Shown: positions 34,801 to 57,646 of the stretch, one piece after another
How positions within the stretch are numbered: the stretch's first letter is position 1
Layout: each line of letters begins with the position of its first letter
DNA from: Anthracocystis setariae
Lineage: Eukaryota > Basidiomycota > Ustilaginomycetes > Ustilaginales > Ustilaginaceae
DNA: 64,000 bases
Reading direction: 5' to 3'
NCBI GenBank assembly: GCA_928724745.1
Contig: CAKMXJ010000021.1
Location: forward strand, 372,001-436,000
Translations under genes and position numbers: made by a program
The notes under the pieces: generated by a model
The model's database searches: none
The model's input: the letters and a program-made list of their open reading frames with translations, nothing else
What the model was told of the DNA's origin: nothing

Positions 34801-36407
34801 TTTGCTTTGAGTAATGTCCGCAAATGCTGACGTTCTGCTGGAGTACCTTGTGACCCAAACTGTTTCTCGAGGAGGGAAGCAATTTGTTCTGCCCTCTCTT
34901 CTGAAGTATCATCCTGCTTTCCACTGACGCGATAAGGTGCAAATTGCTTTTGCAGTTCCGTTCGTGCCGCAATATAGTCAGGGTTACAATCTTTGATGAC
35001 TAGCTTGCGCCTTAGATCTGCGATCTCTTCATCACTGGCTGGAAGATCGAACCGGACTTGCTGATGATCGGAAATTTTGTAGAGTTCTTGCGACCAAGCC
35101 TGAACATAGTCATCGCTTTCTTCTTTGGCTGAATCTGCTTTGATTTGAAACAGCTCTGAAGATGGTGCTTCTGGCTCATAAAGAGCCTCCAATTCTGCAA
35201 TGCTCGCTTTGATTGGATTTGCTGCAATAAGAAGTCGGGTTGCTTCCAATGGAGTCGAAGGAATAGGATGATGTGGAGCTTGATGTTGAGTAGAAATGAG
35301 TTGAATCCATCGTCGAAATGGACTAGGGCCACTTGTATCAGGAACATAGATGACGTCAAGCTCGTAGAAATGTAGTGCTCCGACTTGTGTTTTCCATGGT
35401 TTGCCCAGTAGCATCGAAGCAGGACACTCTGGCATCACCTCGAAGTTGCATTCTTGTTCCTGTGTGGCTCTGTTCTCTGCATCGAAGAGCTTTAGTGTCA
35501 AACGGACATATCCATCAGTTTGCACACAAGCTCCATTTGCCATGCGAACGATATTGTTGGTAGGTAAAGGTTCAAGACCTAGAGGTTGGATGAAGTCACA
35601 AGACACTACATTGACCAAAGCTCCGTCATCCACTACTGCTTGGCCAAATATCATTGTGCTATTATCGTCTTCCTCCTCTTGCGAGGTCGTTACTTGAACC
35701 TTAAGGGTAAAGAAGTTATGACAATGTAGGGCTGCACGCTGCTGAAGAACGAGCAAATTGGCCTTAACTTTCCTTCGCGACACTGATGGTGATTGTTGCT
35801 GCGGTTGCTTTTGCTGCTGCAATTGCTGTGATACTTGTTGCTGAGATGAATGACGCTGCTGCAAAGGAGGTGGTGAAGGAGTGCGAATTGATGGAGAAGG
35901 CGAGGTTTGCTGGTTTCGGGCTGAGCGCCTTAAATGATTGACCTGTGCCGCTGATTGCGTGCTGCCATTAGCTGTAACTGACTCCTGCGCAAGGGCCACT
36001 TTGTCCTGATTTTGAATTTTTCCTTCCGGGCGAGAATAAGATTTAGTTGGAACAGGCGATACCTGCTCCGAATTTTTGTTGGGCTCGGTTAAAGCTACTT
36101 GAGTTCCCTTAGACGGCTGATCCGTCAAAGTTTGTTGTGATCCTGATTGCGATCCTTCCTGAGATGATAAACTCGAAACTGAAACTGATTTTGGGAAACT
36201 TGATTGCAATGAGAACGTGACTGATTTTTTTCTCGACACAGGAGCTAGGGCTTCCTGCGGCGGCAACGGGACAGGCAATTTGGACCACTCGAGCTGGCCG
36301 TGGGAAGAAACTGAAACAAAAGGATTTTTGATCGAGGCTACAGTAATGAGACCCATCGCTGGCTGACCGGCCCTAGAGCTCGGGTCTTTGCAACTCAAGG
36401 GCCTCAA
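31830..36407 (-). pseudogene. gypsy pol with two in-frame stop codons
   Basis: One reading frame covers 36407 down to 31830 if two TGA codons, at about 32966-32964 and 32045-32043, are ignored. Domains in order: a Gln/Ser-rich start; a retropepsin-like segment with DDGALVNVVS instead of the usual DTGA/DSGA; RT with VMPFGFKVGLSLYYRFI and the FWMDDVA catalytic site; RNase H with FIVQSDWSAEGMGAVL and VTDCTALQDVL; an integrase zinc domain (HFAEEIHNQCH then CQSCQQFG); the integrase core; and a GPY-type C-terminal part (LRWSGPYQISS). The first TGA lies between RNase H and integrase, the second between the integrase core and the GPY part. Confidence 0.82.
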
Positions 36408-37525
36408 GCATTTTCCGAACGGCGTCTGTCACGGGAGCTTGCCCCATACATGCGCCTATAGGTTTGCTCGAGTTGGGGGACGGGCTGGTTGGTACAGTTA
36501 TCGGCAAAGTGACCCCTATGCCCACACCTGTGACATTTGTTGCTGCCTGCCGCTTGAGTGCCAGGGGTAAGTGGGTAAGGCTCGTCAATAGGGGGTTGTG
36601 TATACACGCGAGGATGCTGCTTCCCAAAATCCTGTAGTGCTTGCTCATACTGCTTGCGTCCCTCGGATGTATCAGGGAATGTCATTTGGCGAATCTCCAT
36701 GAAACGATCCTTAGGTGGCAAAGGCAGATAATAAACATTGGATGGCGCTGGAAGAGTCTTGAACCTGCCATGGTTGAGGCCCTGCTCCGGAGGCGGCGAA
36801 GGAGGAAAATGCTGGAACGTACCATTGGCACCCTTGCGTAGTTCAGCAATTTCATTTCGAAGCCTCTTTTCCAACTCGCTTTCCCTCTGTTGTTGAGCTC
36901 GGAGTTGTTTAGCAATATCTCTTTGCTGATCATGATCTGCAATAATGCGATCATAAGCTGGCCAAGAAGTCCTTCGGCATAGGTTGACCAATTCAGCGAC
37001 AGTGCCTTTATCATTTGGGGCAGGAATGATAGACTGAACTTCCGGAGGGAGCGAGGACCAAGCGTTATAAGCTAAAGGCCCTGGAAGTGAGTACTCAGCC
37101 GGTACTTCGCTTGCAAGCTGAAGCAGCTGCAAAAGCCATTCATCCCAAGCCTTTTCGTCACGGATGAGATCGAGAGAAGGATGAAGATGAGCATTGAAGC
37201 GAGCCAGGCTTGCTGCTCCCATACCTTCAGAGCCTTCTTCGGTATCAAAGTATTTGAGGAATGCATCCTGAAGTTTGTCCCAAGAGTTCTTGGTAGCGCT
37301 ATCAAGCGTCTTATACCAGGACTCAGCAGCCTTCTGCATTCGGGTCTTGAAGACTCGACAAGCTGCGGCTTCGTTATCAATGAGATCTTTTTCGACTAGG
37401 TACATCTCGAAGTCAGCCAAATAAGACTTTGCAGACGGACCAGTAGGCAAATTAGTGAAAGGTGTGATTCCTAGCCCTAGGCCGTGGTGCGCCGGCTGCA
37501 CGCGACGGTCAAATCCGTCGCCCAT
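36404..37525 (-). CDS. gypsy gag with one zinc knuckle
   Basis: 373 residues from the ATG at 37525 (MGDGFDRRVQ). The capsid-like part includes YLADFEMYLVEKDLIDNE and KNSWDKLQDAFLKYF. A helical Gln/Arg/Glu-rich linker follows, then a CCHC zinc knuckle, CHRCGHRGHFADNC, near the C-terminus. The frame is intact. The stop codon overlaps the pol reading frame, which is shifted by -1 and is open for only about 24 nt upstream of it, so pol expression would need a -1 shift in that short overlap. Confidence 0.8.
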   Translation of the reverse strand: MGDGFDRRVQPAHHGLGLGITPFTNLPTGPSAKSYLADFEMYLVEKDLIDNEAAACRVFKTRMQKAAESWYKTLDSATKNSWDKLQDAFLKYFDTEEGSEGMGAASLARFNAHLHPSLDLIRDEKAWDEWLLQLLQLASEVPAEYSLPGPLAYNAWSSLPPEVQSIIPAPNDKGTVAELVNLCRRTSWPAYDRIIADHDQQRDIAKQLRAQQQRESELEKRLRNEIAELRKGANGTFQHFPPSPPPEQGLNHGRFKTLPAPSNVYYLPLPPKDRFMEIRQMTFPDTSEGRKQYEQALQDFGKQHPRVYTQPPIDEPYPLTPGTQAAGSNKCHRCGHRGHFADNCTNQPVPQLEQTYRRMYGASSRDRRRSENA

Positions 37526-38243
37526 TTCCCTGCCAAATGGCAGGCCCCTCCTTTTGTACGTCACCCCAATGGACAGCCAAATTTACACTGCTCCAGTGCA
37601 GCAACGTCAAACGCCAGATTTTAGCAGGAGCAACGGGCTACGGGCAACGGACGCGTCAAAATTGCCAGGAAATTGGCTGGGCAATGGTCAAAGTGGAGGA
37701 CTGGTCCAGTGCCTGATGTACAGATCCAACTTTGACACTGGTGCCGTGCCCAAAGTACAGATCCAGTGAGCGTATCCGTGGGTGCATCAACTCCAGGTCA
37801 GCACCTTTTTTCCCGTCTGTCAGACCGCCAGCACGTCAATTGACCAGCACATTCATTTTCTTTGACTGTCAGACCGCCATCAAGTCTATTGATCAAGTCT
37901 ATTGATCAGCGCATCAGCTTTTCAGCGGGTCAGTTAAACTGTCCGGACTGGATCCCTTTGTTCACCACCACACAATGCCATTGCCAACACCATCTCCCTT
38001 TGTCCTTGTCCATGGCGTGACATGCCTATCCAACTTATCAGCATGCGTCCAGTCAAACATTCCCTTTGTTCTCACGCTCAGCCATTGTTTGGGCTGGGGC
38101 AAGTACAGCGGTTGTGTGCAAAATTTTTCACTGCGCTTGCCTGGCAGACTGTCCTGCCAGGTACATGCTTTGTCCGTACTACATTGTCTGTGAGTCACGC
38201 ACACTGAATGGCGTTGCTGAGCTGGCTGGACGGGCCTCAGTGG
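37526..38243. other. interval upstream of the zinc-finger/recombinase/helicase gene
   Basis: About 700 bp with no gene. A direct repeat of TGTCAGACCGCCA with a following TCAATTGA-type segment occurs near 37820-37845 and again near 37866-37915, where GTCTATTGATCAA is itself doubled. The interval probably holds the promoter of the downstream gene. Confidence 0.45.
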
Positions 38244-38250
38244 TATATAG
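38244..38250 (+). promoter_or_regulatory. TATA box candidate
   Basis: TATATAG, 107 bp upstream of the ATG at 38357, in a sensible place for transcription of the downstream gene. Confidence 0.45.
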
Positions 38251-38356
38251 ATGGGTGCCTGTTCTGCAGAGGACATCACATCCTCATCCTCTCTGTACCA
38301 ATCTCACTTGAATCTCTACGCCCATCATCAACGCAGACTGCTCAACATCTCCAATC

Positions 38357-40474
38357 ATGACTTCACAGTCACCGCCTCCTGCCAACAACAGCCAAGTTGA
38401 CGGCAACATCAGCGCAGCACTTGACAACGAGTCAGTGGAAATTCCCTTGCTTGAAACGTAAGCTTTTTGTGTCCTGTCCCCACGCATCACCAGCAATTAG
38501 CGTGTTTCTGATACATGTGTCTTTCTCCAACACAGTCCTGTCTTACCTGCTGCAAACCAGCTGGCCGCCAATGCTGCTGCTGTACCCAACATTGCAGCTG
38601 CTGACAGCCGTGCTGCTGCTGCCCCCCAAGGCGCTGACCTTGGCCGCTTCTATCTCCGCTTGGTCAATCACCCGCAGTTGCTTGTCTGCACACGTGTTGG
38701 CTGCACTCTTGGAGTCCCGCTAACACCCTCATTCAAAGATGTTACTGCTCACGTGCAGCGTTTCCATCACCAGCCTCTTGGTGACGCTTCACGCCGCGCT
38801 ATCCAGGCCATGCTTGATCAGCTTGACCTGCCGCTTCCCAAGGATGTCACTGTGGACCAAGATCGGCTGCCTGTGCCCAAGATCAAGGAGCTGCCGGTGG
38901 TCACAGACGGTTACCAGTGCAACCACTGCTCCTATGCCATCTTTGCCAGGAATGCCATGTACGCTCACCTCAAGGACAAACATGCAGACCTGAAGGTCAA
39001 AGCCAAGTCTACGCACCCTGTCCTGCTGCAGGTCATCCAGGAACATGGCAAGAACAAGCGCTACGTCTATGTGCAGGACAAGGAGCTGGACCCCACGCCT
39101 CCACAAGCCATCCTCAACCCCAACTTGGATGCACGCCAGCTGGACGATGCCATCAAAGCCAAGGCTGCTGCATTCATCCAGCAGGATCAAGATGCTCTCC
39201 GTGATGCAGGTCTGCTCAACCCTGTTGTGGACACCTCCATGCGCACCGGCAACATTGGTCCCTGGGCCAAGCAGCTCAAGTGGCGCTCCTACTGGGCAGG
39301 CAAGCCGCTGACTGCCATTGGCGCCTTGGGCACAGACACGTCAAGCTGGCCCGGCGCTCACAGTGACTTTGTTCACTGGCTGGCTAGAATGACCAAAGCC
39401 TTTGCTCTGCATTGGATGCAGGCCTTTATGGACTCTGGCCGCTACATGCAGCAGACATTCCGTGCCTACAGTGACAAGCCGTCCGAGCCCTACAACCTCC
39501 AGCCTCCCACCATCAAGAAGCGTGCTGACATGTGGGGCAATGTCCTTGCTCTACTTGCACACCTTGCCTTGGACGGTGAGGCCCTCCACTATCACGGCAG
39601 CAGGACAGAGGAGCAGCATCTGGTGGTCACAGAAGAGGCCACAGAGGCCATTCTACACCTGCGTGACTTGTCAACGCTCTTTGACAATGACAATGATGCC
39701 AGCGCCAACACCAGTGCACTTGCAGCTGCAGAGCACCAGCAACACATTCATGAGGTCACCCTTGCAGTGGAAGAAGCGCTGCTCAGCCTGTCCCACCAGC
39801 TCATCACGCAGCGGCCAGCAAAGCACGGTCAGACAGATGAGCTGATGCTGGTGCGTCTCTTCATGCACATGTGTGTGGACAGGGAAGGCATGCCCAAAGC
39901 CGTCAGCGCTGCCACCTCCATCATTGCCAGCCTGGAGTTCTGCATGCGCGCTGTGTTGCACCACTACCTCTTCAATGACACCAACGGTCAGCTCTTGAAG
40001 ATGTCTCCATCTCAGACGGACAAGGCCATGCGCAAGCACCTCAAGGAGAATGTCTACCACAACAGCAACTCTGCCAGCGCCCACCTCCAGTCTCTCCACC
40101 GCTACGGCAAGGTGCTTGCTCAGGATGAAGTCACGCCATTCATCTGTTCTTGGGCGCATGACCTCAGCCACATCAAGTATGGAACAGAGGAGATCCAGAT
40201 CACACGCCTCCAAGCTCTGATGCAGGGTGCACAGGAACAGGCAGAGCGTCACCTGCGTCAGCTGTGTCTGCTCCCAGAGGACGCCACGCTGGCCATCAAC
40301 CTCAAACACATCCAAGATGATCACCGCAACATGCAACCAGGCTTCAACTTTGTCTCCGCCTCCCCAGAGCTCAGCAACCTCAGCACTGTCCTCTGCCGTG
40401 CCGTTGCTGGCAACGCCCCACCAGCGCAACCGTTGCTGGATGCCTACAGTGAAGAGCTGGAGTTTGATGCAGAA
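38357..40474 (+). pseudogene. 5' half of an OrsD zinc finger / tyrosine-recombinase-like / RecQ helicase gene
   Basis: Exon 1 is 38357-38457. A 78-nt intron (GTAAGC...CACAG) follows, then exon 2 from 38536 to the retrotransposon insertion at 40474. Together they encode 680 codons, exactly in frame at the break. The N-terminal part is Ala/Pro/Asn-rich. Two zinc-finger-like units follow: LLVCTRVGCTLG with HVQRFHH, and GYQCNHCSYAIF with HLKDKH, which fit the OrsD/DUF3505 pattern found in large fungal helicase-like proteins. The rest is helical, with a WAKQLKWRSYWAGKPL block, and I do not recognise it further. The frame then enters the LTR and stops. The gene continues after the insertion, at 50170. 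The fragment lacks decay, so the insertion may be recent. Confidence 0.78.
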
Positions 40475-41587
40475 TGTCAGCGGTCGGGCGCCTGGTAAAT
40501 AGGCCGATCTTGTTTCGAGAGCGGTGCGGTCCTGTTGGGCTGGGCCGCCGAGTTTGGGTTACGCGCCTGCGCAACTGGGTAGTACGAGGTGGGTTGCGCA
40601 GATACGTCGGCGGTCCGATAACGACGACTGGGCCGCACTCAACTCGACGGCGGTGGAGTGTGGGCCTCTCAACCGCGTTCGACCTATTACCGACTGACGC
40701 TGTTGGCGCTCCGTTCAGCGGCAGCACGGCGTACTCGGTATTACAGTGTGTTAGCTTGGTGTCCCGCGAGCGCTCTTGACGAGACAGGAAGCTGTTTAGA
40801 TGATTAGGTGAACACTGGGAGTGATCACCAAGCTGTTACGGCGACGGCTTAGGGCCTGACGTCCCGATGTCAGCTTGTAGGCAGCGTTTACGCGCTGCGG
40901 TGTCGATACCGGTACCGACGAGGTCTAGCTGTTCTCCGACTTGAACGGAGGCACGCGAGGAAGCTGCAATGCTACTTGTATTGCAACTTACTGAACTAGA
41001 AACTGAATGATCGTGAAGACGTCGTTAAGAATAGATACTGAGCTGAAGACTGGTGTTATAAGAAGTAGAGTGGATGAGGAGCTCATCCACTACGAGCCAG
41101 ATGAGTAGGCCTTAAGTATGACTGCTCCAAGCCCCTATGACAAGGCTGATCCGGCGCTAGCCTATTGTCTAGCTGCACGGCCGGCGTGTGCGCATGTACT
41201 GACCGTGGTACAAGCGGCTGATCACCTCCAAGCCTCTGAGAGCGCCTAAGATGGTGTCCCTTGACTGTTGATCACCTCGAGATGGCGTTGTCGCGATCCG
41301 GCGTCTCTGCGCTGTCGAACGGCCGCAATCCGACTGCTATGGACGAAAACGGCTGAGAGAGACCTTTTGAGCCGCACTCACTCCGAGGGCGGCCGAAAAG
41401 CGTGTTTTCCACCGCTCCAACTTTGCCCCCCGTGAGTAACGCCACTACTAAATTCGGCGCACTGCTGGTCACGCAGCTCCCCTCACCCGAATGCGAGGGC
41501 GGTTGACTATAGCCCTCTTAACCGCGCTTGAACCGAAGGCGGCCGGAAAACCAGTTCTCCGCCGCCTCAGCTTCGCTGCCTGTAACA
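40475..41587 (-). repeat. element D 3' LTR
   Basis: 1113 bp, downstream LTR in the element's orientation, with the same TG...CA termini. It matches the other LTR exactly over 40475-40569 and 41059-41587 and diverges in between. Confidence 0.93.
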
Positions 41588-41635
41588 TTACCCCCCTTCC
41601 GAGAACCGAGCTCCTGCAAGGTGAAATGAAATGGG

Positions 41636-41695
41636 CTGCGCATCTTCCAGCCGCCGTGAGCTCGTCTGCGCATCTTCCAGCCGCTGTGAGCTCGT
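41636..41695. repeat. 30-bp tandem duplication
   Basis: Two copies of a 30-bp unit containing CTGCGCATCTTCCAGCCGC, differing at one base, just inside the 3' LTR and upstream of the antisense gene start. It could be part of that gene's promoter or leader. Confidence 0.75.
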
Positions 41696-41762
41696 CGGCG
41701 GCTGAGTGAGAAGACCACTGAGCTACCATCATCACCCCAGAACCTCCTCGTCACCATCCACG

Positions 41763-43366
41763 ATGGCGCCCAAGAAGAACCCCTCGACTGCGCCCGCTGT
41801 TCCTTCACGTCGGTCGGCTCGGCTGGCCAAGCCACCGGCCGATACTGCTCCTCACTCCGACTCGTCGTCCGGCGCTAGTCAAGCCCCGGCGGAGTCTACT
41901 ACCCTCACCACGCCTGCTGTCGTCGTCGTCGCCGCTGCTGTTGACGCACCCGACACCATGACTGTGGCTGCCGCTGTAGCCCCACCTGCTGCAGTGGCCG
42001 TGACTGCTGCTGCTGCCGCGCCGGCCGTCATGGCCGTAGATGTTGTCGCTGCCGCGTCCGACCCCGTGGTTACAGCTCCTATTGTCACCACCTCTGACGC
42101 CATCGCGACTCCTGCTGGTGTTGCTGTGCCAATCGCTCTGACCCCGCCACAAGTCCGGATCTCAACTTGTGTAGCCGGTTCACCATTGGTACCGTTATTC
42201 CTTGGTCCCTCGTCGCGATCTCCGTCGTCGAGTGGGTCGATTTCGCCGCCTCGTTCACCTGTTTACGTGCGTCCTTCGCCGGAACTGTACGTACCATCCT
42301 CCCCTCCTGCGCAAGTTCCCTCCTCCCTGGGTAGATTTACAGCCAAGGAGCTGCGTGCGATGACAAGCGCGCAGCTCCATGATCATGGTCTGACACCGGC
42401 CTCGCCGCCCGCGGAGTCTCGTTCGCCGATCTATGGTGCTGAGGCGGATGCTAGTCCTAGACTCGCCCACACGCCTGACATCGGCCTGCCACTAGGATCG
42501 CCTGGCCGCCGAACACCCGAAATCGGCCCGCCACCTATTCGTCGGCCCGAGGACGTGGTGCTGTCACGCGTGGGTCCTCGTAAACCCTCTCTGGTCGAAA
42601 TGCTGGAGTGGACAGAGCGATACACCGCCCCTGCTCTGCTCATCGCGATTGTCAACGAGGCCTGGGACCGCGAGTGGCAGCTCGACGATGCCGGGAAGAT
42701 CTGGTTACACCGAACGATGGTGCGCCGCTTGACTGAGGGTAGTTTGCCGTGGCCGAACTACAGCTGCCAGCACTGTGCTGATCTCGATGTACCGTAAGTA
42801 ACCCTTCCGACATGTATGGCTCGGGCAGCGCTGACGACCCGCCTCTCTCCTTTCTTGATTTCGATAGATGCTTTCCTGTCACCTACGGTGACCCAACCGG
42901 TCCTCGTCCCCGTCCCGCAGCTTCGTCCTGCTGCCACTGCCTGACGACCAAGAAGAAGTGTGGCGGCCGTACGATCTGGCGCGCCACTCGCCACGAGTAC
43001 GTCGGCGATAGCCCTTACTCGACGTTGAGCACAAACGAGCGGGCTGTGGTGCGTGCCCACCTCTCGTACCCTGGTGGTCCCGGCTTGGGCATGGCGTGGC
43101 GTCGCGACCGCCTGGTGGACTGGTTCAAGGAGCGAACCTTCCACCTCGACGCTCGCAATGCCTTCTTGACGGAGGGCACGATCGGGACGCAAGTTCGTGA
43201 GACCCTGGCGCGTTACCGTCGTGAGAACCGTTCCTTACTTGGCCAGTACCTGCCGTGTGAAGTTATGGAGGAGGAGTCGAACTTCGAGGGTCTTGGCTGG
43301 TTCGTGGAAAGCCGTGGTGACGACGAAGAGGAGGTGCGGTACCACCGCCCTGAGATCTTCCGCTAG
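41763..43366 (+). CDS. antisense accessory gene inside element D
   Basis: On the strand opposite gag-pol, between the pol stop and the 3' LTR. Exons are 41763-42793 and 42868-43366, joined by a 74-nt GTAAGT/TAG intron, giving 509 residues. The first ~240 residues are Ala/Pro/Val/Ser-rich with RRSARLAKPP near the start. The remainder is an ordinary globular-looking sequence: FTAKELRAMTSAQLHDHGLT, LVEMLEWTERYTAP, WQLDDAGKIWLHRTMVRRL, and cysteine pairs CQHC (just before the splice) and CCHCLTTKKKC (just after). These could form a metal site across the splice junction. I do not recognise the protein. Splicing in frame across a conserved-looking Cys region argues that the frame is real. Antisense ORFs in this position are known in some plant gypsy elements. 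Confidence 0.65.
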
Positions 43367-43572
43367 CTGTCGTTTAGCAATCCAAGTCGTTTCTGTTGTG
43401 CTTGAACACTTTATGAATTGGTCGTGATGTCTTTGAGATTTGAGAAAAGAGTGTGAGTGTGTGGCGACGGGTGTCGATGGCGGCCAATTGAATATGCCAA
43501 CGCACCGCGGTCACGTCACGGCGGCTCAATGACCAGTACCGCGCCGCCAAATTTTCAGGCGCGGTCGGATAT

Positions 43573-46500
43573 CTAATTTGTTTGCCGCCGTCCCGTTACT
43601 CGAGGAGGTTGCCCCCCCCGCTTTTCCTCATACTCCTGGATGAGGTCGGGGCAGGCCAGAAGTTTGACGTATTCCCAGGAAGCCTGTTCCTCAGGGTAGC
43701 CCTTCCAAAGGACGCGATATTGGAGCCTTCCAGCGATGGTACGGCGACCCGTGATAGCTTCGACCTCGTACTCAAGATCTTCGTCATGTAGCTGTGGCAC
43801 TGCCACACGCTCATCCCTACCCTCAATCTTGCTGGACCTCAACTTCTTGAGCATCAAGACGTGGAAGACATCATGAACGCGGAGCGACGCCGGCAACTGA
43901 AGACGGTACGCTCTGGCGCCGATGCGCTCGATGATGGGGTACGGCCCAGCGAAGCGAGTGTCGAGCTTGGGACTCGGTCGACGAGTCTTCCAGTTGCGTC
44001 GATTGACGTAGACAAGTTCACCAACCTTGAACTCGACGTCGAGGCGTTTCTTGTTGTACTGCTCGACAGCACGAGTTTGAGCCAATCGTACTTGGTCTTG
44101 TAGATAAGCTGTGAGGTCTGCTTCTGAACGAGCGAACTCCGCTCGTTGAGGGTCGAGCACGCCAGCACGTTCTGGTACTTCAGGATGCATTTTGGGGTTC
44201 CACCCGTAGCACGCAAAGAAGGGTGAGACGCCGAGACTGCTATGTACCACATTGTTGTAGACGAACTCGGCATTGGCTAGTAGCGAGGCCCAGTTGTCCT
44301 GCTCGAAATTGCAATACATACGGAGGTACTGCTCAACGACTTGGTTGACTCGCTCCGTCTGACCGTCTGTTTGAGGATGATACGCCGTCGACAGCGAGTG
44401 CTGGATGGCGTGGAAATCGGTGTACCGTTTCCAGACCGCGGAGATGAACTGACAACCGCGGTCGGAAACGATATGCTCGGGTGTTCCAAACCGGCGAAAC
44501 ACGTGTTGCTGGAGGAGCTCAGCAGTGCCAGCCGATGTGATGGTTTTGACCGTCGGCGTGAGCACCGCGAGCTTGGTAAGCCGATCGACGACGACCAGAA
44601 TCGAGTCGTAGCCGTCGGAGAGTGGCAAGCCCTCGATAAAGTCCATGGATACCGATCCCCATGGTCTTGAGGGAGTGGCCAACGGCTTGAGCAGGCCGTA
44701 CGGCCGATGACGGGGAGCCTTGTAGCGAGCGCAGACCGGGCAGCTCGCTACGTAATCGGCGATCCAAGCACGCATTCCTGGCCACCAGTAATGCCGCTGG
44801 GTGAGGGATAACGTTGCATCCCGACCTGGATGGCCGGCGGTGATGCCGTCGTGACATTGTGTCATCACCATGAAACGCAAGTGTTCCACTGAGAGCGACT
44901 GTTCGCTGGCAATCTTGGCTGAGCGTGTGTCGCGGCGGCCCTGCTTTCCGGCCAACGTGACCCTGGGAATGACGAGTCGGCCATCGCGGTGCCAGAGACC
45001 GTCTTTGACCTCGAAAGGCATGTGCTTGTGGAGCGCCTGGAGCTCGGTGTCGAGAGGTTGGAAAATGCGGGCTAGCTCCGGCAGGCCGCCCTTTACTATT
45101 GCCGCCATCGACGAACGCGGCTGAATAGCCTCCACTAGGCCGGAGTCGGATCGTAATCGGTCCGGTGACCTATTTTCCGGCAATGCAGTTTCGAAATTGC
45201 GGGGGTGGAGGAGCTGCCGTACGTTGTGTTCACGCTCCTCTGCCGACGGCTCCATATCGTTGCGTCGCGTCAAGGAGTCGGGCTCACCAGCCTTGTCTCC
45301 TGGTCGGTACTGAACGACGAAATCGAAGTCGGCCAGTAATACAGCCCACCGAGCCTGTCGTCCGCTAATGCGTCGTTGCACTGTGAAGTACTTGAGCGCC
45401 TCGTGATCCGAGAGAACGGAGAACCGAGACGGGAGCCCCGCCAGCATGTGTCGCCACTGATGGAGGCAGGCGACGATGGCGAGGAGCTCTTTGTCATGGA
45501 TCTCGTAGTTTCTCTCAGCTGACGTCATCTTGCGCGAGTAGAACGCCACGGGATGCCATCTGTTCTCCGTCTCCTGTTTGAGAACGCCGGCAATGGCGAA
45601 GTCGCTGGCGTCAGTCTCGAGGCGGGTTGACTTGTGATAATCGAAATGTCGCAGTACTCCAGCTGTAGTGAAAGCCTCGATGAGCTTGTGGAAAGCCTCA
45701 ACCGCCTCCTCCGACAACTGGAACTTCTTGAAGCGCTCCGTAGGCTTGATGAGCGATGTGAGAGGCCTCGAGATGCGAGCGAAGTGTGATATGAACCGGC
45801 GATAGAAGTTCGCGAACCCAAGGAAGCGCTGGATATCATGAACCGTCTGCGGCAACGGCCACTCTTTGATGATTCGTACCTTCTCTTGATCCATTTCGAT
45901 ACCTCCTGGCGTGATGACGTAGCCGAGGAACTCGACGGTGTCTGTGTGGAAGATGCACTTTGACAGCTTGGCGAAGAGACGGTTCAATTTCAAACGCCGC
46001 AGTACTTCGCGGACGTGCTCAACATGCTCATCCTCGTTGTTGCTGAAGATGAGGAAATCATCGAGATACACCACGACATAGATTCCGATGATGTCGCGGA
46101 AGATGCCGTTGACAAGAGACTGGAAATGCGAGGGCGCGTTTGCCAGCCCGAAAGGCATGACAAGGTACTCATACAAGCCGAGCTGGGTGCCGAACGCCGT
46201 CTTCCATTCGTCGCCGTCAGCTATGCGTACCAGGTTGTAGGCCGCCTTGAGATCGAGCTTACTGAACACCTTAGCATTCCTTAGGAGGAACAGCTGCTCC
46301 TCGATGAGCGGCAGCGGCGCTCGATTCTTGACAGTGACCTCGTTGAGCCCTCGGTAGTCGACACAGAGGCGGAGGCCGCCGTCCTTCTTCGGCACAAACA
46401 GCACTGGCGAGCGCGCTGGGCTCTTTGATGGCCGAATGAATCCCTTCGCAAGATTCTCGTCGAGGTACTTGCGTAGTTCCTCCATCTCCTTAGGCCCCTT

Positions 46501-47343
46501 GAGATAGAGTGGGCCCTGCGGAGGTTTGGCCCCCGGCACGAGCTCGATGGGCAAGTCCGTGCTGGTGCGAGGAGGCAGCTTGTCGGCCTCGACTTCACTG
46601 AAGACCGCCTCGAGATCCCGGTATTGCTCTGGGATCGACACTGGAGTCGGTGGTTCAGGCTCCACCTCAATCTCGATGCCCTTGTCTTCGCCGGTAGGGA
46701 CGAAGCCGAAGCTTGGCAGCGAGGAGGGTGGAGCATCGATCAGCATAATGCCAATTGGTCCGTCCTGATAGGACGCTTGGACGAGCTGTTGGAATGAGAC
46801 GAACTCGTTTCCGTGGACCGTGATACCCGGCTCGTTAGAGGGTAAGGCGCGGCTGATGACACTAAGTGACGGACCGAGGTCGTGTTTAACGCGGCCTAGT
46901 GGATCCCGCTGCGCCGCGGTGAATTTAATTCGGCCCAAAGTCCAGTCGATCCTCGGCTGAAGTGTGCGAAGTTCCTGGTAGCCGATAATGAGATCGAAAT
47001 CGCTGATGTCCGCGACATAGGCCTGCAGCGGCGGTAAAGTTTGCTCGCCGATGTTGACCGTCAGCGTCGCATCGTGAGTGATGGCTAGACGATGGCCGCT
47101 GACGCCGTGGACTGCAGTGGGCTGGGGAGTGGTCTTGATGTTAATACAATATGTGCGGGCGTAAGCGCTTGAGAGAAGAGACAGTGAAGCTCCGGTGTCG
47201 GCCAGGATGCGCGCCGGGCACCCGTTGATGGTGCCGGTAACTTCGAGGACCGATGTATTGGAGTTGGCCGAGAAACACAATGAACAGTTCCGATATATAC
47301 AGGGTGATGGCGAGGGCGGTTGCAGGGCAAGACAAGCCATCAT
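43573..47343 (-). CDS. element D pol: protease, RT, RNase H, integrase, chromodomain
   Basis: 1256 residues from the ATG at 47343. Domains in order: retropepsin with the active-site LADTGASLSLLS; RT with PFGLANAPSHFQ and VVYLDDFLIFS; RNase H with RLETDASDFAIAGVL and the EIHDKELLAIV helix; integrase zinc domain (GHPG, H, then CPVCARYK); and the integrase core with MDFIEGLP, SDRGCQF and YHPQTDGQTERVN. A GPY-type region with FAGPYPIIERIG and a C-terminal chromodomain (LEYEVEAITGRR, YRVLWKGYPEEQASWE) finish the protein. The chromodomain places it among the chromoviruses, which can target silent chromatin. All catalytic residues are present and the frame is unbroken, so the element may be competent. 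Confidence 0.95.
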   Translation of the reverse strand: MMACLALQPPSPSPCIYRNCSLCFSANSNTSVLEVTGTINGCPARILADTGASLSLLSSAYARTYCINIKTTPQPTAVHGVSGHRLAITHDATLTVNIGEQTLPPLQAYVADISDFDLIIGYQELRTLQPRIDWTLGRIKFTAAQRDPLGRVKHDLGPSLSVISRALPSNEPGITVHGNEFVSFQQLVQASYQDGPIGIMLIDAPPSSLPSFGFVPTGEDKGIEIEVEPEPPTPVSIPEQYRDLEAVFSEVEADKLPPRTSTDLPIELVPGAKPPQGPLYLKGPKEMEELRKYLDENLAKGFIRPSKSPARSPVLFVPKKDGGLRLCVDYRGLNEVTVKNRAPLPLIEEQLFLLRNAKVFSKLDLKAAYNLVRIADGDEWKTAFGTQLGLYEYLVMPFGLANAPSHFQSLVNGIFRDIIGIYVVVYLDDFLIFSNNEDEHVEHVREVLRRLKLNRLFAKLSKCIFHTDTVEFLGYVITPGGIEMDQEKVRIIKEWPLPQTVHDIQRFLGFANFYRRFISHFARISRPLTSLIKPTERFKKFQLSEEAVEAFHKLIEAFTTAGVLRHFDYHKSTRLETDASDFAIAGVLKQETENRWHPVAFYSRKMTSAERNYEIHDKELLAIVACLHQWRHMLAGLPSRFSVLSDHEALKYFTVQRRISGRQARWAVLLADFDFVVQYRPGDKAGEPDSLTRRNDMEPSAEEREHNVRQLLHPRNFETALPENRSPDRLRSDSGLVEAIQPRSSMAAIVKGGLPELARIFQPLDTELQALHKHMPFEVKDGLWHRDGRLVIPRVTLAGKQGRRDTRSAKIASEQSLSVEHLRFMVMTQCHDGITAGHPGRDATLSLTQRHYWWPGMRAWIADYVASCPVCARYKAPRHRPYGLLKPLATPSRPWGSVSMDFIEGLPLSDGYDSILVVVDRLTKLAVLTPTVKTITSAGTAELLQQHVFRRFGTPEHIVSDRGCQFISAVWKRYTDFHAIQHSLSTAYHPQTDGQTERVNQVVEQYLRMYCNFEQDNWASLLANAEFVYNNVVHSSLGVSPFFACYGWNPKMHPEVPERAGVLDPQRAEFARSEADLTAYLQDQVRLAQTRAVEQYNKKRLDVEFKVGELVYVNRRNWKTRRPSPKLDTRFAGPYPIIERIGARAYRLQLPASLRVHDVFHVLMLKKLRSSKIEGRDERVAVPQLHDEDLEYEVEAITGRRTIAGRLQYRVLWKGYPEEQASWEYVKLLACPDLIQEYEEKRGGQPPRVTGRRQTN

Positions 47344-49013
47344 TCGGTTGTCCCACGCCCGTTTCCCTCAACGTCGTGATCATCATCGGCCCCGTCGTCG
47401 TCAGCGAGGGGTGGGAGATCTTCATAACCAAGTGCCTCCTCCTCATCTTGGTCTTCGACGTCCTCTTGTGCTACGGCATCCTCTTGTGCCACGTAGGCTC
47501 GAGGTCCAGGTCGTCGTGGCGCTCCGGTGGCCGTCTCCCGGGCCGGCTGAGGGCAGTCACGCACCCAATGACCCTCCTTACCGCATCGCTTGCACGTGGT
47601 GGAGCCGAAAGTCGTCGGCGAACGATCGTAGACGACGGGCAGGCGTTGGGCCAGATGGGGCGGTAACGGCCGAGGGCGCGCTGGGGAGGGCGTGGCTGCA
47701 GCCGGCCGTGCCTCCACGGCGGACGGTGCCAATACCCGCCCGGCCGCTTTTGCACCGTCGGCGGTCGGGGCGTGAGTTCTTCCAGCCGCCGAGGGGAAAT
47801 CGTACCGCAATGAGTTTGAGATCGGCTGAGCGAGGGTCGCTGCACCGCCTTGGTACGTCTGTTGCGCTAAGACCCGGTTGCGGTCCAAATCCTCCACCTC
47901 GCGGTAGAACTCCCACAACGTCTTCGGCGACGTACGCTCGAATTGACGCTGGAGAACTGGAGTCAAGCCCCGCCGGAAAAGGTGGAGTTTGAGGTGCTTG
48001 TCACTCATACCAGCTCGCTCCTCGAGGGTCCTGAACGCTTCGACGTACTCGCTTGCAGCGCCTGGCTTGTCGGTTGCGAGGCGCAGGGCGTAGAGCTTAT
48101 TGAAGGCATCCAGCTTCTCGTCGTGAACGCCGTAGAGCTGCTTGAGCCGGTTGACGAAAAGGGTCCAGTCACCGAACAATGCGCCCGACTGGGATGGATC
48201 GGCACGTAGTTTGGACCGGTACCAAGTGAGAGCCCGACCCTTGAGATGCGGTCCCAGGAATTGGATCCTCTTGCGGCCGTCGGACATCTCCTGATACCGG
48301 AACCAGGCCTCGACCTGGATGAGCGACATCTCCAAGTCATTCTCTTGCCAGTCGGGGAAGTCAAGCTTCGGGTCGCTCTTGGCAGTATTGCGCTCGAAGG
48401 TTGCTTCCCGTGCCGTCATGGTGGGATGGTCCCAGGCGGGGCGTCGGCCGGTGGAGGTCGAATACAAGTCCTCCTGACTGTACTCTTCGTTCCAGCGTAG
48501 GGCTGACGCCACTGGTCGACGGGCAGGGGTAGAGCTACCCAACGGAGCAGAGCGCCGAGGGTCATCATGCATGCTGTACGACCTCTCCTCGTGCGCTTCG
48601 TGTCCAGGGGCGACGGCGGCGACCTCTGGCTCACCCCCTCGGCGTAGAGCTGGCTTGATCAGCTCCCTGAGGTCTGCGATCTCGGCCTTGAGCGCGAGGA
48701 TCTCCTCCTGTTGCGCCGTGAGGGGTCGCGACGTAGCTGGAGTAGCTATCAGGGGCGTGGACGACGACTTGAAGCCGGTCGCCTGGTCCATAAGTGTGTA
48801 GAGCTTCTCCTGGAAGCGGAGTCGGTCCTGACTCTCTTTCAGCATGGCCTCCTGTCGACTAGCTTCGTAAACCATGCGTTGATTATGGACCTCCTTCATC
48901 TGAAGTCGGATGTCCTCAATTAAGCCTTGCAGCAATGGTTCCGGATTCGCTGCAGGAGGCGACGAAGCCCGGCTGCGAGGAGTGCTGCCTCGCGGCGCGG
49001 CTGCGTCGGACAT
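47340..49013 (-). CDS. element D gag
   Basis: 557 residues from the ATG at 49013, which is only 38 nt from the 5' LTR. An N-terminal coiled coil (RLQMKEVHNQRMVYEAS and ALKAEIADLRELI) precedes the gag capsid core with WYRSKLRADPSQSG, LKQLYGVHDEKLDAFN and EYVEAFRTLEERAGMS. A CCHC zinc knuckle, CKRCGKEGHWVRDC, and an acidic tail follow. The TGA stop is part of an ATGA in which the pol ATG begins, so pol may be made by termination and re-initiation. The frame is intact. Confidence 0.92.
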   Translation of the reverse strand: MSDAAAPRGSTPRSRASSPPAANPEPLLQGLIEDIRLQMKEVHNQRMVYEASRQEAMLKESQDRLRFQEKLYTLMDQATGFKSSSTPLIATPATSRPLTAQQEEILALKAEIADLRELIKPALRRGGEPEVAAVAPGHEAHEERSYSMHDDPRRSAPLGSSTPARRPVASALRWNEEYSQEDLYSTSTGRRPAWDHPTMTAREATFERNTAKSDPKLDFPDWQENDLEMSLIQVEAWFRYQEMSDGRKRIQFLGPHLKGRALTWYRSKLRADPSQSGALFGDWTLFVNRLKQLYGVHDEKLDAFNKLYALRLATDKPGAASEYVEAFRTLEERAGMSDKHLKLHLFRRGLTPVLQRQFERTSPKTLWEFYREVEDLDRNRVLAQQTYQGGAATLAQPISNSLRYDFPSAAGRTHAPTADGAKAAGRVLAPSAVEARPAAATPSPARPRPLPPHLAQRLPVVYDRSPTTFGSTTCKRCGKEGHWVRDCPQPARETATGAPRRPGPRAYVAQEDAVAQEDVEDQDEEEALGYEDLPPLADDDGADDDHDVEGNGRGTTE

Positions 49014-49050
49014 GTCGAGTACGAGGCGCTGCTTGAACGATCCACTCTAA

Positions 49051-50164
49051 TGTCAGCGGTCGGGCGCCTGGTAAATAGGCCGATCTTGTTTCGAGAGCGG
49101 TGCGGTCCTGTTGGGCTGGGCCGCCGAGTTTGGGTTACGCGCCTGGTCAACTGGGTAGTACAAGGTGGGTTGCGCAGATACGTCGGCGGTCCGATGAGGA
49201 CGACTGGGCCGCACTCGACTTAGCGGCGGTGGAGAGTGGGCTTCTCGACCGCGTTCGACCTATTACCGACTGACGCTGTTGGCGCTCCGTTCAGCGGCAG
49301 CACGACGTACTCGGTATTATGGCGTGATAGCCTGGTGTCTCGCGAGCGCTCTTGGCGAAACAGAAGGCTGGTTGACTATCTAGGTGAACACTGGGAGTGA
49401 TCACCAAGCTGTTACGGTGACGGCTTATGGTCTGACGTACCGGTGTCAGCTTGTCTGCAGCTGTCAAGCGCTACAGTGCCGATACGGGTGCTGACGAGAT
49501 CTAGTTGTTCTCCGACTCGAACGGAGGCACGTGAGAAGCTGCAATGCTTACTGTATTGCAACTTACTAAACTAGATACTGGAATGATCGTGAAGAAGACG
49601 TTAAGAAGCTATACTGAGCTGAGAGACTGGTGTTGTAAGAAGTAGAGTGGATGAGGAGCTCATCCACTACGAGCCAGATGAGTAGGCCTTAAGTATGACT
49701 GCTCCAAGCCCCTATGACAAGGCTGATCCGGCGCTAGCCTATTGTCTAGCTGCACGGCCGGCGTGTGCGCATGTACTGACCGTGGTACAAGCGGCTGATC
49801 ACCTCCAAGCCTCTGAGAGCGCCTAAGATGGTGTCCCTTGACTGTTGATCACCTCGAGATGGCGTTGTCGCGATCCGGCGTCTCTGCGCTGTCGAACGGC
49901 CGCAATCCGACTGCTATGGACGAAAACGGCTGAGAGAGACCTTTTGAGCCGCACTCACTCCGAGGGCGGCCGAAAAGCGTGTTTTCCACCGCTCCAACTT
50001 TGCCCCCCGTGAGTAACGCCACTACTAAATTCGGCGCACTGCTGGTCACGCAGCTCCCCTCACCCGAATGCGAGGGCGGTTGACTATAGCCCTCTTAACC
50101 GCGCTTGAACCGAAGGCGGCCGGAAAACCAGTTCTCCGCCGCCTCAGCTTCGCTGCCTGTAACA
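49051..50164 (-). repeat. element D 5' LTR
   Basis: 1114 bp, upstream LTR in the element's own orientation. Its element-5' half (49636-50164) is identical to the other LTR over 529 bp, while 49146-49635 differs at more than 40 positions. Confidence 0.93.
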
Positions 50165-51307
50165 CAGAAGCAGCACAGTCCTACTTCAGCACGCACAACG
50201 AGTTCATCAAGCTGCTTGCCGTTCTCATTGAACTGGGCAGCGGTCTGCCAGCAAGAGGTACAGAACTGATGCAGCTTCAGCACACCAACACGCTCATGGG
50301 TCCACGCAACATCTTTGTCCATGATGGCAGCGTCTTCACGGCACTGCCCACCAACAAGGGCTCAGGGCGGCAAAGGATCATCCCACGCTTCCTGCCTCAT
50401 GCAGTTGGCTGCATGGTGGTCTACTACGTCTCTCAGGTGGCGCCCTTTGTCCATCTGCTTCACAACGCCATCATCAAGCCCCGCCCAGCCTGCCACATGC
50501 TTCTTTCTACGCACAGCGGACAGCCGCTGGACACCAACACCGTCAGCAAGATGCTGCAGGCGCTCCATCAGCAGCACATCAGCTCTGTCTCCAGCGGCAT
50601 GACCATGCGCATGTGGCGTCAGGTTGCGGTAGCCATTGACCGCAAGCTCATCCGTCCAGGCTCTGCAAGCATGTCCAGCAAGGAAACAGATCAAGACAAC
50701 GAGCATGATCTCCAAGCAGGTCACTTGACCAGCACCGCAGAGCAGCACTACGGCCTGGATGCAAGCATGCTCTACCAGCTCACGCAGGAAAGCATGGACC
50801 GCATGCTGGCGGTGTCAGAGCGCTGGCACACATTCTGGAGGATGCGCACGCGCTTTCAAGAGGACACACAGCCGTTCAACCAACTTGTTGAGCTTGGAAG
50901 CGGTGCAGACCACGCACAGGAGCTCAGAGGCATCAAGCGCAAGTTGGAGCTGGTAGAAGAGAGCGTGCTCACCATCAGATGCAAGCTGGAACACCACACT
51001 CCACCATCAGCGCACAGCACTGGCGGCAGCCTGCAGCTCAGCGGTGCTTCACGCTCTGCTGTGCTCCCACCAGCGGTCAGCAGGGCCCTCTTCCAGATTA
51101 CCGGCAGCCACCGCACCAAGACACTGGAGCAGGCATATGCACTCAATGCCATTCACGCCAAGGAGTCTCCACTGATCATCATCATGGCCACTGGATCCGG
51201 CAAGTCTGCACTCTTCATGGCTCCACTGCACTGGCTGCCAGAGCGGTCTGTCATCATTGTGGTGGTGCCCTTCATTGCGCTGACAGATGACCTCCTGCAA
51301 GACTGAA
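50165..51307 (+). pseudogene. 3' half of the same gene: recombinase-like core and start of RecQ/DEAD helicase
   Basis: Positions 50165-50169 are the duplicated target CAGAA; coding sequence resumes at 50170 in the frame of the upstream half. The first ~200 codons carry a tyrosine-recombinase-like set: SGLPARGTELMQLQ (box I Arg), TNKGSGRQRIIP (Lys), MTMRMWRQVAVAI (box II Arg, with Met in place of His) and AGHLTSTAEQHYG (His and Tyr). A helical linker with RGIKRKLELVEESVLTIRCK follows. The RecQ/DEAD helicase then begins, with KESPLIIIMATGSGKSALF (Walker A) and IIVVVPFIALTDDLLQ (motif Ia). It ends at a TGA at 51304, immediately before retrotransposon A. Helicase motifs II to VI are missing and should lie beyond the nest. 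The recombinase reading is inference from motif order and spacing. Confidence 0.75.
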
Positions 51308-51520
51308 TGTTATGAACATCAGTGCCGGGCAGGAACATAATTGTGTGACAAGCGGGAGGGGGCTTTCCCGATCCGCATTGTGGATCGGGGTCCAGGGTGG
51401 AACTGCGGCAATCTCCGGGAGGGGCTCCCGGAAGTCATACCGAAGATCCTCCCTGCAACTAACTCACGTTCAGACGTCGATTGTATTTTAGCTTACTCAC
51501 TATAGTAGGTGGAAATATCA
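51308..51520 (+). repeat. element A 5' LTR
   Basis: 213 bp, TGTTATGAACATC to GGAAATATCA. Repeated at 54111-54323 with one seen substitution. Confidence 0.85.
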
Positions 51521-51704
51521 GACCTTCTCCCGATCTCTCGCTCACCCGCTCCGCTATCTAGGCAACGATCCCGGGAACAACACCCGGTACCACGCCCCTG
51601 GCCTCGATCCAGACGCACCGCCACGTTCCGAGGTTCCCAGACCCCAGGAGCATAACATTACAATCGACCTCCCCGTTGCCGTCAACGCGGAGACTCCAGC
51701 TACC

Positions 51705-54110
51705 ATGCAAACCCGTAGCCAGCATCGTCCCGGCTCCCCGGACTCTGTTACGAGCTCGGGCAGCCCTACCCCCGATTCGGGAGTCGACCCCGTCCAGGGA
51801 CTAGTTGCCGCCGTGCAGAACCTAACCGCCCTGGTCGGAGGACTCGCCGACCAGATCCGGCTGCTCAACAGCGGCCGAGCCCCCGACCCCACCGTCCCGA
51901 CCCCGGCAGAACCGGGCCTCCCGCCCATGGAGCACCCGGGAGACCTTTCTCCGGAACGCGAGACCTCGGAGGAAAGGTACGCCCGCGCTACTCGCCTTAT
52001 GGGCGAGCGCGGGGCCAATCCCCAGCCGGTGCCCCCCGGGAGCTCCCGTCGTAGCTACCAACTGGGACCCTACGGAGGACTACTCCTCCCGGGTCAAGGC
52101 CCCGGAAGTTAGCGTCGCCGCCCCTTCCTGGGACGGCAAGCGCGACGAGCTGGAGGCTTTCATCGAACAATGCACCCTCCACTTCGATCTTAACCCGGCA
52201 CGTTTCCCCTCCGACCCCCCGCCGGGTCTTATGGGCCCTAGCCCATATCTCGGGTGTACCCCGGGAGCGACTCCGCAACCTGCGCCAGGCCCGCCCGGAA
52301 ATCAACCTATTCCACAAATGGGATACGTTCTGTGCCGATCTTCGCCGCACCTATGGGGATCCTAACCCGGGACACACCGCCCGGGTCAAGCTCCAGCGGC
52401 TGCGTCAATCGGGAAGCGTTAGCGCTCATGCTGCCGAGTTCTTGGCCTTAGCCACTAAGGCTAACGCTACCGACAATCAGCAATTGCTGACGACCTTCCA
52501 GCTTAGCCTCCGGGAGAGCCTCCGGCAGAAGCTCCTCCACGTGGAGACCTACGACCTGCACGAGTACATTGACACCGCTATCCGAACCGAGCAGCGAATG
52601 TACGAAATCGGCCTGGTGACCCCGGGTCATTCGGACACCCCGGGTCGCCCGGAACGCCGCCCCGAACCTCGGGGTGGTCGCCCACCCAATTCGATGGTAC
52701 CCCGTCGCGAGACCCCCAACAAGCGGGGTGATCCGCCCCGCCCCGGGCTGGCCAGCCGGGAGCTTCCCGACGAGGTCCGCAAGTACCGTCGGGAAAACAA
52801 CCTCTGCTACGGGTGCGGGGGCCCTCACGCAGTCCGGGACTGCCCAAAGGCCGCCCAGACTCGGCCCCTCCGGGCCAATGTGGCTATCCTGGACCCCGCC
52901 AACGGCGAGCTTTTGGTCCAACCCCTGGTCCCGGACGTCCCGGAGATCCGGTGGTCCGGTGAGGACAAAGCCACACCTATCAACGGCGAGGATGACCTAC
53001 CCGATGACCGCTCCGTTCTTTCCTATGACCCGGAGTGGGACCCCGAGTCCACCGACCATCCTCAGTCTCTCCCGGTGAGGGCCAACATTGCCCAACTTTG
53101 CCAGGACCCGGGACTCGTGGATCTCAGGAGCCATGTAGCGGCCCTCATCCCTCCCGCCGAGCCGGTGATCAGCGGGGACACCATCCGAGTACACCGACAC
53201 CCCAGCATCCCGGTGTATGAGTGCTGGGTCACGCTGGCCGGGTGCCGTGCCCGGGCCCTCATTGACGGGGGCGCCACCGCGTCTTTTGTGGACAGGGCCA
53301 TGCTGGATCGGGAGGTGGGCGTCCCGGAGGCCCTCCGGGCCCCGATGCGCACGGCAACCTTCGATTCCCATTCAGAGGACATCACCCACACCCTCCGGGC
53401 AACGGTCAGCCTCGCGGGCGTCCCGGTTACCCCGAATCATCAATTCTACGTCGCACCCCGCATCTCCGATTATGATATCATCCTGGGAATGGATTGGATT
53501 GAGAAGACCGAACCGGTACTAAATTATCAAACCCAAACCATGCACTTCCCGCTCCCGGGAGGAGGGGGCTACGCCACCACCCCGGTTCAACCTACCGGCC
53601 CTCCGCTGCTTACCAATGGACAGGATCCCGTCCCGGGGGAGAACTGTTTCGCTATCCACCCCAACCCTTTGGGGCCACCCCGGGCCCCAGGCCTCCCGGA
53701 AGAGTATCGGGACTTCTCGGACGTGTTCGATGAGGTCAACGCCGACGTGCTCCCTCCTCGCCGGTCTCACGACCACCAGATTAACCTCCTTCCCGGAGCC
53801 CAGATCCCACATGGCGCACTATACTCCCTCTCCGGGAGAGAAATGGAGGAACTTAAGACCTATCTTGATAAGATGCTTGAGATAGGGTTCATCCGGCCGT
53901 CCAAGAGCCCGGCAGCCGCCCCTATCATCTTCGTCCCGAAGAAAGATGGCAAACTCCGCCTTTGCGTCGACTACCGGGCCCTCAACAGCATCACCGTCAA
54001 AGACAAGTACCCGATTCCCCTGATCTCCGAGCACCTGGACTGCCTCTCCCGGGCTAAGATTTACACGAAATTAGATCTTAAGGGGGCCTACAATCTGGTC
54101 CGCATCGCGG
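51705..54110 (+). pseudogene. element A gag-pol, frameshifted and truncated
   Basis: The frame opens at the ATG at 51705 (MQTRSQHRPGS) and is broken twice by single extra C residues in C-runs, at about 52032-52037 and 52215-52220, relative to element B. Downstream the frame is open to 54110. Gag zinc knuckle CYGCGGPHAVRDC, protease with LIDGGATASFVDRAML, then the RT N-terminus with FIRPSKSPAAAPIIFVPKKD. It is cut at the NLVRIA of the RT, where element B begins. Gag and pol share one frame in this family. Confidence 0.85.
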
Positions 54111-54323
54111 TGTTATGAACATCAGTGCCGGGCAGGAACATAATTGTGTGACAAGCGGGAGGGGGCTTTCCCGATCCGCGTTGTGGATCGGGGTCCAGGG
54201 TGGAACTGCGGCAATCTCCGGGAGGGGCTCCCGGAAGTCATACCGAAGATCCTCCCTGCAACTAACTCACGTTCAGACGTCGATTGTATTTTAGCTTACT
54301 CACTATAGTAGGTGGAAATATCA
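54111..54323 (+). repeat. element B 5' LTR
   Basis: 213 bp, same termini as the element A LTR (TGTTATGAAC, ATATCA); directly preceded by CGCGG of element A's RT. Confidence 0.85.
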
Positions 54324-54507
54324 GACCTTCTCCCGATCTCTCGCTCACCCGCTCCGCTATCTAGGCAACGATCCCGGGAACAACACCCGGTACCACGCCC
54401 CTGGCCTCGATCCAGACGCACCGCCACGTTCCGAGGTTCCCAGACCCCAGGAGCATAACATTACAATCGACCTCCCCGTTGCCGTCAACGCGGAGACTCC
54501 AGCTACC

Positions 54508-57297: not shown

Positions 57298-57646
57298 TGT
57301 TACGGCTGGGCGAAGGCTCTCAACCAGCGTGCTGTCCGACGGCCGCGCTGGGGAGAGGGCGTGCCACGCGGGGTGTTACCATTAAGGGGCGAGCTACGGG
57401 GGATGCTGGGAATGGAGGAGCGCGCCGCGCGTCGCTTCCTGAAGAGGGAGGCGCGCCGCGCAGCGTTCGACACAGGGGCCCAACCCATATGTCGTGAATC
57501 GGGGCCGCGCGCGAGCCGCGTGTTTCCAGGAAGAGGCGCGCGGCGCGTGGCACGCGTGATGCCTTATAAGGTGGGGGCCGCGCGCCACCTCCTTGTTGTC
57601 CGCCGTCGAATGTATTCTTAGTTACTTTGAGTAATAGCGAATATCA
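57298..57646 (+). repeat. element C 5' LTR
   Basis: 349 bp, dominated by GCGCGC-type runs. The end is set by analogy with elements A and B (ATATCA followed by GACC), as no second copy is in the window. Confidence 0.7.

Follow-up and report, generated by a model that had tools for sequence, protein, structure and literature searches.

We analyzed a stretch of 64,000 nucleotides (the window) from the smut Anthracocystis setariae, which corresponds to positions 372001-436000 of contig C20 in a genome of 21.47 Mb and 36 contigs. It holds a copy of a telomere-linked helicase (TLH) gene, which is the subject of this report together with the larger unit to which it belongs. The copy has been disrupted twice, by a long terminal repeat (LTR) retrotransposon that lies inside it and by another gypsy-type element to which its end was lost at 51307, and therefore is not a functional gene. 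Two pieces remain, which we call A and B and which were used as separate queries throughout and never joined. The features of the unit, in which YR stands for tyrosine recombinase, are as follows.

37470..38356, plus strand: left end of the putative mobile unit (opening with CCTAGCCCTAGGC) and 5' non-coding leader; homology between copies begins here
38357..38457, plus strand: predicted TLH exon 1, from ATG to splice donor, by reading; its frame fits exon 2
38458-38535, plus strand: predicted small, frame-preserving intron, by reading of the sequence
38501-40498, plus strand: stop-to-stop open frame of piece A
38536..40474, plus strand: piece A, with the OrsD zinc-finger region and the putative upstream (core-binding) part of the recombinase (open frame, OrsD PF12013, paralogs)
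38672..38983, plus strand: OrsD, two C2H2-like zinc-finger units (Pfam PF12013, E 8.3e-8)
50165..51307, plus strand: piece B, with the predicted YR catalytic domain, a linker and the start of a RecQ/DEAD helicase
50167-51303, plus strand: open stretch of piece B with the R-E-K-R-H-Y series followed by Walker A/DEAD
50167..50919, plus strand: predicted YR catalytic domain (R 50254, E 50263, K 50356, R 50617, H 50722, Y 50749)
51127..51300, plus strand: Walker A and motif Ia of the RecQ/DEAD helicase (Pfam PF00270, E 4.3e-6, residues 321-378)

An initial annotation made from the letters alone had proposed a single gene split by an inserted element, with zinc fingers at its N-terminus, a YR-type middle domain and the beginning of a RecQ/DEAD helicase. 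In the paralogs of the same genome open frames cross the insertion point without a break, and thus pieces A and B belong to one gene, as proposed. The zinc-finger units coincide with a match to OrsD at residues 58-161 of piece A (33.1 bits, above the Pfam cut-off of 26.6), and the helicase start in piece B with the PF00270 match given above. When the pieces were searched separately against the genome, six copies near contig ends were found to have open frames of 1,619-1,625 amino acids. A second subfamily, whose identity is approximately 65% over piece B and 43% over piece A, includes one frame of 1,673 amino acids; its OrsD score is 24.1 bits, under the cut-off, and the remaining copies are shorter or broken. 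Both paralogs that were scanned against Pfam contain DEAD as well as Helicase_C, which supplies the full-length copies with a complete helicase that the initial annotation had advised looking for, and the helicase family profile is nearest to BLM and RECQ5.

The middle domain escapes sequence comparison. There was no match to Phage_integrase in Pfam scans of the window pieces and paralogs, nor to DUF3435 in those of the window pieces and two paralogs, and sequence and profile searches of the PDB gave no YR; apart from noise, Pfam and the PDB yielded only OrsD and the helicase. Since sequence searches did not reveal a YR, we turned to fold prediction. This check had been set in advance, and structure prediction followed by structure comparison gave a YR-like fold for 50167-50919. 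In a model of a relative (P0043) the upstream and catalytic parts align with XerH and Cre, which suggests that piece A may contain the core-binding part of the recombinase. Methionine replaces the first histidine of the HxxR motif, as had been claimed.

Conservation points in the same direction. Three homology searches (21 rows, the best 120 of 136 rows, and 46 rows) led to a set of 185 proteins, and in alignments of 140 and of 185 proteins gaps were set aside column by column. Throughout these family alignments, as the second check set in advance required, the residues picked out by the initial annotation (R, K, R, H and Y) are conserved: in the larger one the lysine is present in 184/184 sequences, the tyrosine in 165/166, the glutamate in 176/178, the histidine in 161/167, and the first and second arginines in 168/178 and 154/167, respectively. 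Ranked among 262 columns, K stands 1st, Y 3rd, E 7th, H 11th, the first R 14th and the second R 17th, so that the five residues predicted from one sequence all fall within the top 17 (hypergeometric 6e-7, with the cut at 17 columns chosen after the ranks were seen). Within the genome the ratio of nonsynonymous to synonymous polymorphism (pN/pS) is 0.123 for the YR stretch (9 copies), 0.117 for the linker and helicase start (9 copies) and 0.189 for piece A (8 copies); thus, the YR is under purifying selection, like the helicase. A Kalmanozyma brasiliensis protein (P0002) shares 94% identity with the YR stretch over its 251 residues.

The unit that carries this gene has an exact left end. Twelve other copies of the subfamily match the window copy in its upstream flank, 10 of them from a common starting point (window 37459, 37467 or 37470); in the C12 and C14 copies the match begins only further in. 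The shared sequence opens with CCTAGCCCTAGGC, and what precedes it differs between copies, with the exception that some flanks have subtelomeric repeats in common in a shifted register. Members of the second subfamily (C18, C23) have identical first 13 bases and different bases thereafter. These 13 bases occur 40 times in the genome, once in the window, and twice in a reversed control. Thirty-five of the 40 ends are oriented toward the nearer contig end and two are not (C26, C30), the other three being on contigs of unknown length; 38 lie within 50 kb of the contig end at which they point, at a median of 10.9 kb. The 33 left ends that were read have flanks falling into 28 clusters, and their median pairwise identity is 0.37 outside the end and 0.95 inside it. 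TTAGGG occurs within 60 bp in four flanks. A left end precedes 21 of the 23 TLH N-terminal matches by 1.1-1.4 kb, and the 19 left ends that have no such match nearby are presumably truncated.

The left end is an inverted repeat, CCTAG-CC-CTAGG, whose letters resemble a pair of telomere repeats with CCCTAG in place of CCCTAA. At C28:21150 and C30:24388 (loci L096 and L097) approximately 32 bp of it remain and are followed by telomere-like TTAGGGTTTG; these remnants are a minimal end or a scar. At C5:911577, 913368 and 915185 (L081-L083) there is a tandem unit of approximately 1.8 kb that consists of flank and a truncated TLH end.

Uninterrupted targets could be recognized for most of the flanks followed up. 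A genome-wide search for empty sites covered 10 of the 33 flanks read and found an uninterrupted copy elsewhere for seven: those of the window (at C5:847219), C10:20195, C23 (second subfamily), C17, C15, C26:17374 (an alignment of 39 bases only) and C10:765207. For the C6, C26- and C18 flanks the genome-wide search returned only the flanks themselves. At C5:847219 the 300-bp flank of the window copy (98%) continues uninterrupted into CCTGCC, and CCT stands at the junction in all seven cases (CCTGCC, CCTTTG, CCTTGT, CCTGAA, CCTACT, CCTCTG and CCTAAC); filled sites read CCTAGCCCTAGG where the empty targets have CCT. The window itself holds relatives of two further targets. One is a gypsy pol copy related to the C10:813483 target (89% identical), with CCC at the junction; the other is the following.

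30500..30606, minus strand: uninterrupted relative of the C26:32282- target (91% over 111 bases, then CCTCAC)

Overall, the junction is CCT in eight of nine targets, most of which have only CCT in common with the left end.

The other side of the unit presents a different picture. In all three cases followed (the window, C10:20195 and C10:765207, with 140, 99 and 196 bases, respectively) the contig that bears the insertion lacks the distal half of its target, and these distal halves occur elsewhere in the genome; one of the three is an interstitial copy whose right point is 58 kb from the contig end. In the adjoining stretches read, which end short of the chromosome ends, the distal half was not found directly beside the unit, nor did a right junction with target sequence come to light. 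Among copies of the first subfamily (fam-1) homology ends 93 bp past the stop codon (position in C7) and is followed by one of two blocks, the first of which also lies downstream of a second-subfamily copy in C18. The shared point is present in 7/7 exact matches to its last 16 bases; we did not adopt it as a right end. A left side that varies and a distal side that is common is the pattern expected of chromosome ends handed on whole.

In four loci (L075, L076, L077 and L099) a block opening with GGGGATTGCC lies to the right of the gene and adjoins it; the first bases of this block have a TLH gene adjacent in 4/4 exact genomic matches, and inverted copies, AGCAATCCCC, occur in 3/4 of these loci. 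A tRNA-like T-arm motif downstream raised the candidacy of a tRNA as integrase target, which we rejected because ARAGORN found no tRNA at five loci.

In this genome the TLH genes are multicopy and near chromosome ends. Exact 18-mers of TTAGGG arrays number 449 in the genome and 0 in the reversed control, and the first 100 of them, which lie on C2-C8, were located; because TTAGGG is found at or near several TLH-bearing contig ends, those contig ends are chromosome ends. At the right end of C3 (L050-L070) TTAGGG stretches recur every ~446 bp across ~10 kb as a satellite-like array.

Based on these observations, we think it probable that the gene in the window is a broken telomere-linked RecQ helicase with a previously unrecognized YR in its middle, and that it makes up the coding portion of a one-ended mobile unit. 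The favored order of domains in the predicted protein would be OrsD zinc fingers, core-binding and catalytic YR domains, and RecQ helicase. The computed basis for this explanation consists of the YR-like predicted fold, in which the catalytic residues are conserved, purifying selection, the exact left end, the unlike flanks, the body that extends toward the contig end, and CCT at the junction of uninterrupted targets. That the protein may mobilize or maintain chromosome-end DNA, as the initial annotation suggested, is supported strongly, although indirectly, by the precise left end, by flanks that vary from copy to copy and by the empty sites. We envisage that the YR would cut within the inverted-repeat end, CCTAGCCCTAGG, with the 3' phosphate staying on its tyrosine, and that the element strand would be joined by its free 5' end to a chromosome that has been opened at a CCT. 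The RecQ part could then unwind toward the telomere, and copying or reciprocal exchange would transfer the end of the donor to the recipient, which would lose or swap its distal arm; the zinc fingers may recognize the left end or telomere-like DNA. Such a mechanism would explain together the exact left end, the fixed orientation, the missing distal target and the location.

Other explanations deserve consideration. It could be posited that this is an ordinary two-ended, Crypton-like YR transposon whose circular intermediate integrates at CCT, the distal target having been lost later or lying far off. A YR with a short core shared with its target is the usual mode for such elements, and the shared point past the stop in C7 would be the second end; yet the distal target half is off the contig in every case followed, including the interstitial copy with 58 kb beyond it, and a right junction to target sequence has not been seen, so we regard this explanation as unlikely. 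It seems still less probable that the unit has spread passively among subtelomeres by homologous recombination or break-induced replication while the YR serves another purpose, for example in resolving telomere intermediates. Exchange between subtelomeres is known in fungi, the copies are near-identical, distal blocks are common to both subfamilies and some flanks share repeats in shifted register. However, homology-driven exchange would not begin at one base beside 28 flank clusters, nor at targets most of which offer the left end only CCT.

We consider it very improbable that the middle domain retains the YR fold as a DNA-binding relic devoid of recombinase activity. The second arginine is histidine in 2 of the 20 sequences of the first alignment, and among the 185 proteins arginine is lost in 10/178 and 13/167 and the histidine in 6/167. 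However, the arginine losses shown (P0010, P0014 and others) are mainly to C, H, Q and W, which are the changes expected from CpG decay, and would thus mark inactive copies, and a relic would fit poorly with the column ranks and the pN/pS of the YR stretch.

The reading of the TLH gene as the coding part of a one-ended unit may extend well beyond this species. Named relatives among the 185 proteins come from smuts, Boletales, Agaricales and other mushrooms and, in the Ascomycota, from Pyrenophora, Epicoccum, Alternaria, Villophora and Gaeumannomyces, and many of the proteins are metagenome entries. Many relatives carry OrsD with DEAD/Helicase_C and are annotated as 'DNA 3'-5' helicase' or hypothetical. 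One TLH-type protein (P0176) is labelled as belonging to a metagenome-assembled genome of Staphylococcus equorum, which is probably fungal contamination. We lean slightly toward the broader hypothesis that in Dikarya the telomere-linked helicases act as YR-RecQ fusions and belong to a separate class of one-ended mobile elements, in which a telomere-like left end is joined to CCT and the rest of the arm is replaced by the body and a telomere, in effect a Helitron-like mobile chromosome end.

Known systems share parts of this arrangement. Like the TLH unit, Cryptons have a YR as presumed mobility enzyme and no reverse transcriptase, but the TLH YR is fused to RecQ and OrsD, and the unit has one fixed end, a fixed orientation and, in the cases followed, no distal target half on its contig. 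The Crypton YR carries a DNA-binding domain of GCR1_C type, for which there was no Pfam match in the window pieces or two paralogs. Starship captains (DUF3435) are also fungal YRs that move DNA; the TLH protein differs in lacking a DUF3435 match, in its helicase fusion and in its location at chromosome ends. Helitrons offer an analogy, with a joiner and a helicase in one protein and one constant end, although the TLH unit has a YR rather than HUH, RecQ rather than Pif1, and the target CCT; the same Pfam scans gave DEAD/Helicase_C and no match to Helitron or PIF1. KolobokH combines a DDE transposase with RecQ, and AcademH is similar; no DDE transposase was matched in the window pieces or the two paralogs. 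The labels Crypton, DUF3435, Helitron and DDE were set aside for want of matching Pfam domains in these sequences. Telomeric retrotransposons (HeT-A, MoTeR and FoTeR) likewise live at chromosome ends but move by reverse transcription, and the TLH gene has no such Pfam domain.

The closest precedents are the TLH helicases themselves (Ustilago UTASa, Magnaporthe TLH, S. pombe tlh1/2), which likewise have a RecQ core and are multicopy and subtelomeric. The accessible portions of the TLH literature describe no exact mobile end or target, both of which could be read in the present genome. In the available text of the U. maydis papers RecQ is named and the word 'recombinase' is not used (PMC10532341, PMC7593156), OrsD being named there for UTASb (PMC10532341). 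The same word is missing from the accessible part of a Fusarium TLH paper, in which FoTeRs are often beside TLH genes (PMC12857005), and the 13 subtelomeric RecQ copies of M. graminicola are treated, in the portion available, as a gene family (PMC4522978). In the text available for PMC10799480 'RecQ' and 'tyrosine recombinase' occur once each, the former in a reference title. A telomere-linked helicase with a tyrosine recombinase is not described in the titles and abstract openings among the matches listed, which for two queries were 20 of 171 and 15 of 17 and which mostly lack subscription literature, and an earlier description is possible.

The window copy lies among retrotransposons, which comprise the following.

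40475..50164, minus strand: Ty3/gypsy LTR retrotransposon inside the TLH gene (LTRs 94.5% identical; Pfam domains)
47340-49013, minus strand: its gag
43573-47343, minus strand: its pol
51308..57385, plus strand: second gypsy-type element, partly duplicated, that ends the TLH gene early (repeat pairs 51308/54111; gag-pol-like frames by reading)
32043..37469, minus strand: AT-richer gypsy-type element (frames 32043-37582, minus strand, by reading; GC ~0.47-0.50)

A 5-bp duplication, CAGAA, flanks the Ty3/gypsy insert at 40470-40474 and 50165-50169 and is this insert's own, not that of the TLH unit. On the strand opposite to its gag-pol (41706-43366, plus strand) there are two frames of 363 and 184 amino acids with a splice-donor-like GTAAGT between them; they matched no Pfam family above cut-off and are possibly an accessory gene of the element. 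In the second element the LTR and gag region occur twice, 2.8 kb apart and in near identity, as a partial tandem duplication. In the AT-richer element the left end of the TLH unit interrupts the gag-like frame.

TLH genes are found at many fungal chromosome ends and have usually been read as helicases that aid telomeres. If our proposal is correct, TLH genes conceal a strand-exchange domain and, together with an exact end and CCT as target, would form a mobile system that rebuilds chromosome ends, with a pairing of joining enzyme and helicase that is without parallel among the matches listed. The location of TLH genes at chromosome ends and the spread and reshuffling of subtelomeres would then become testable through a single protein with its catalytic tyrosine and a single DNA end.

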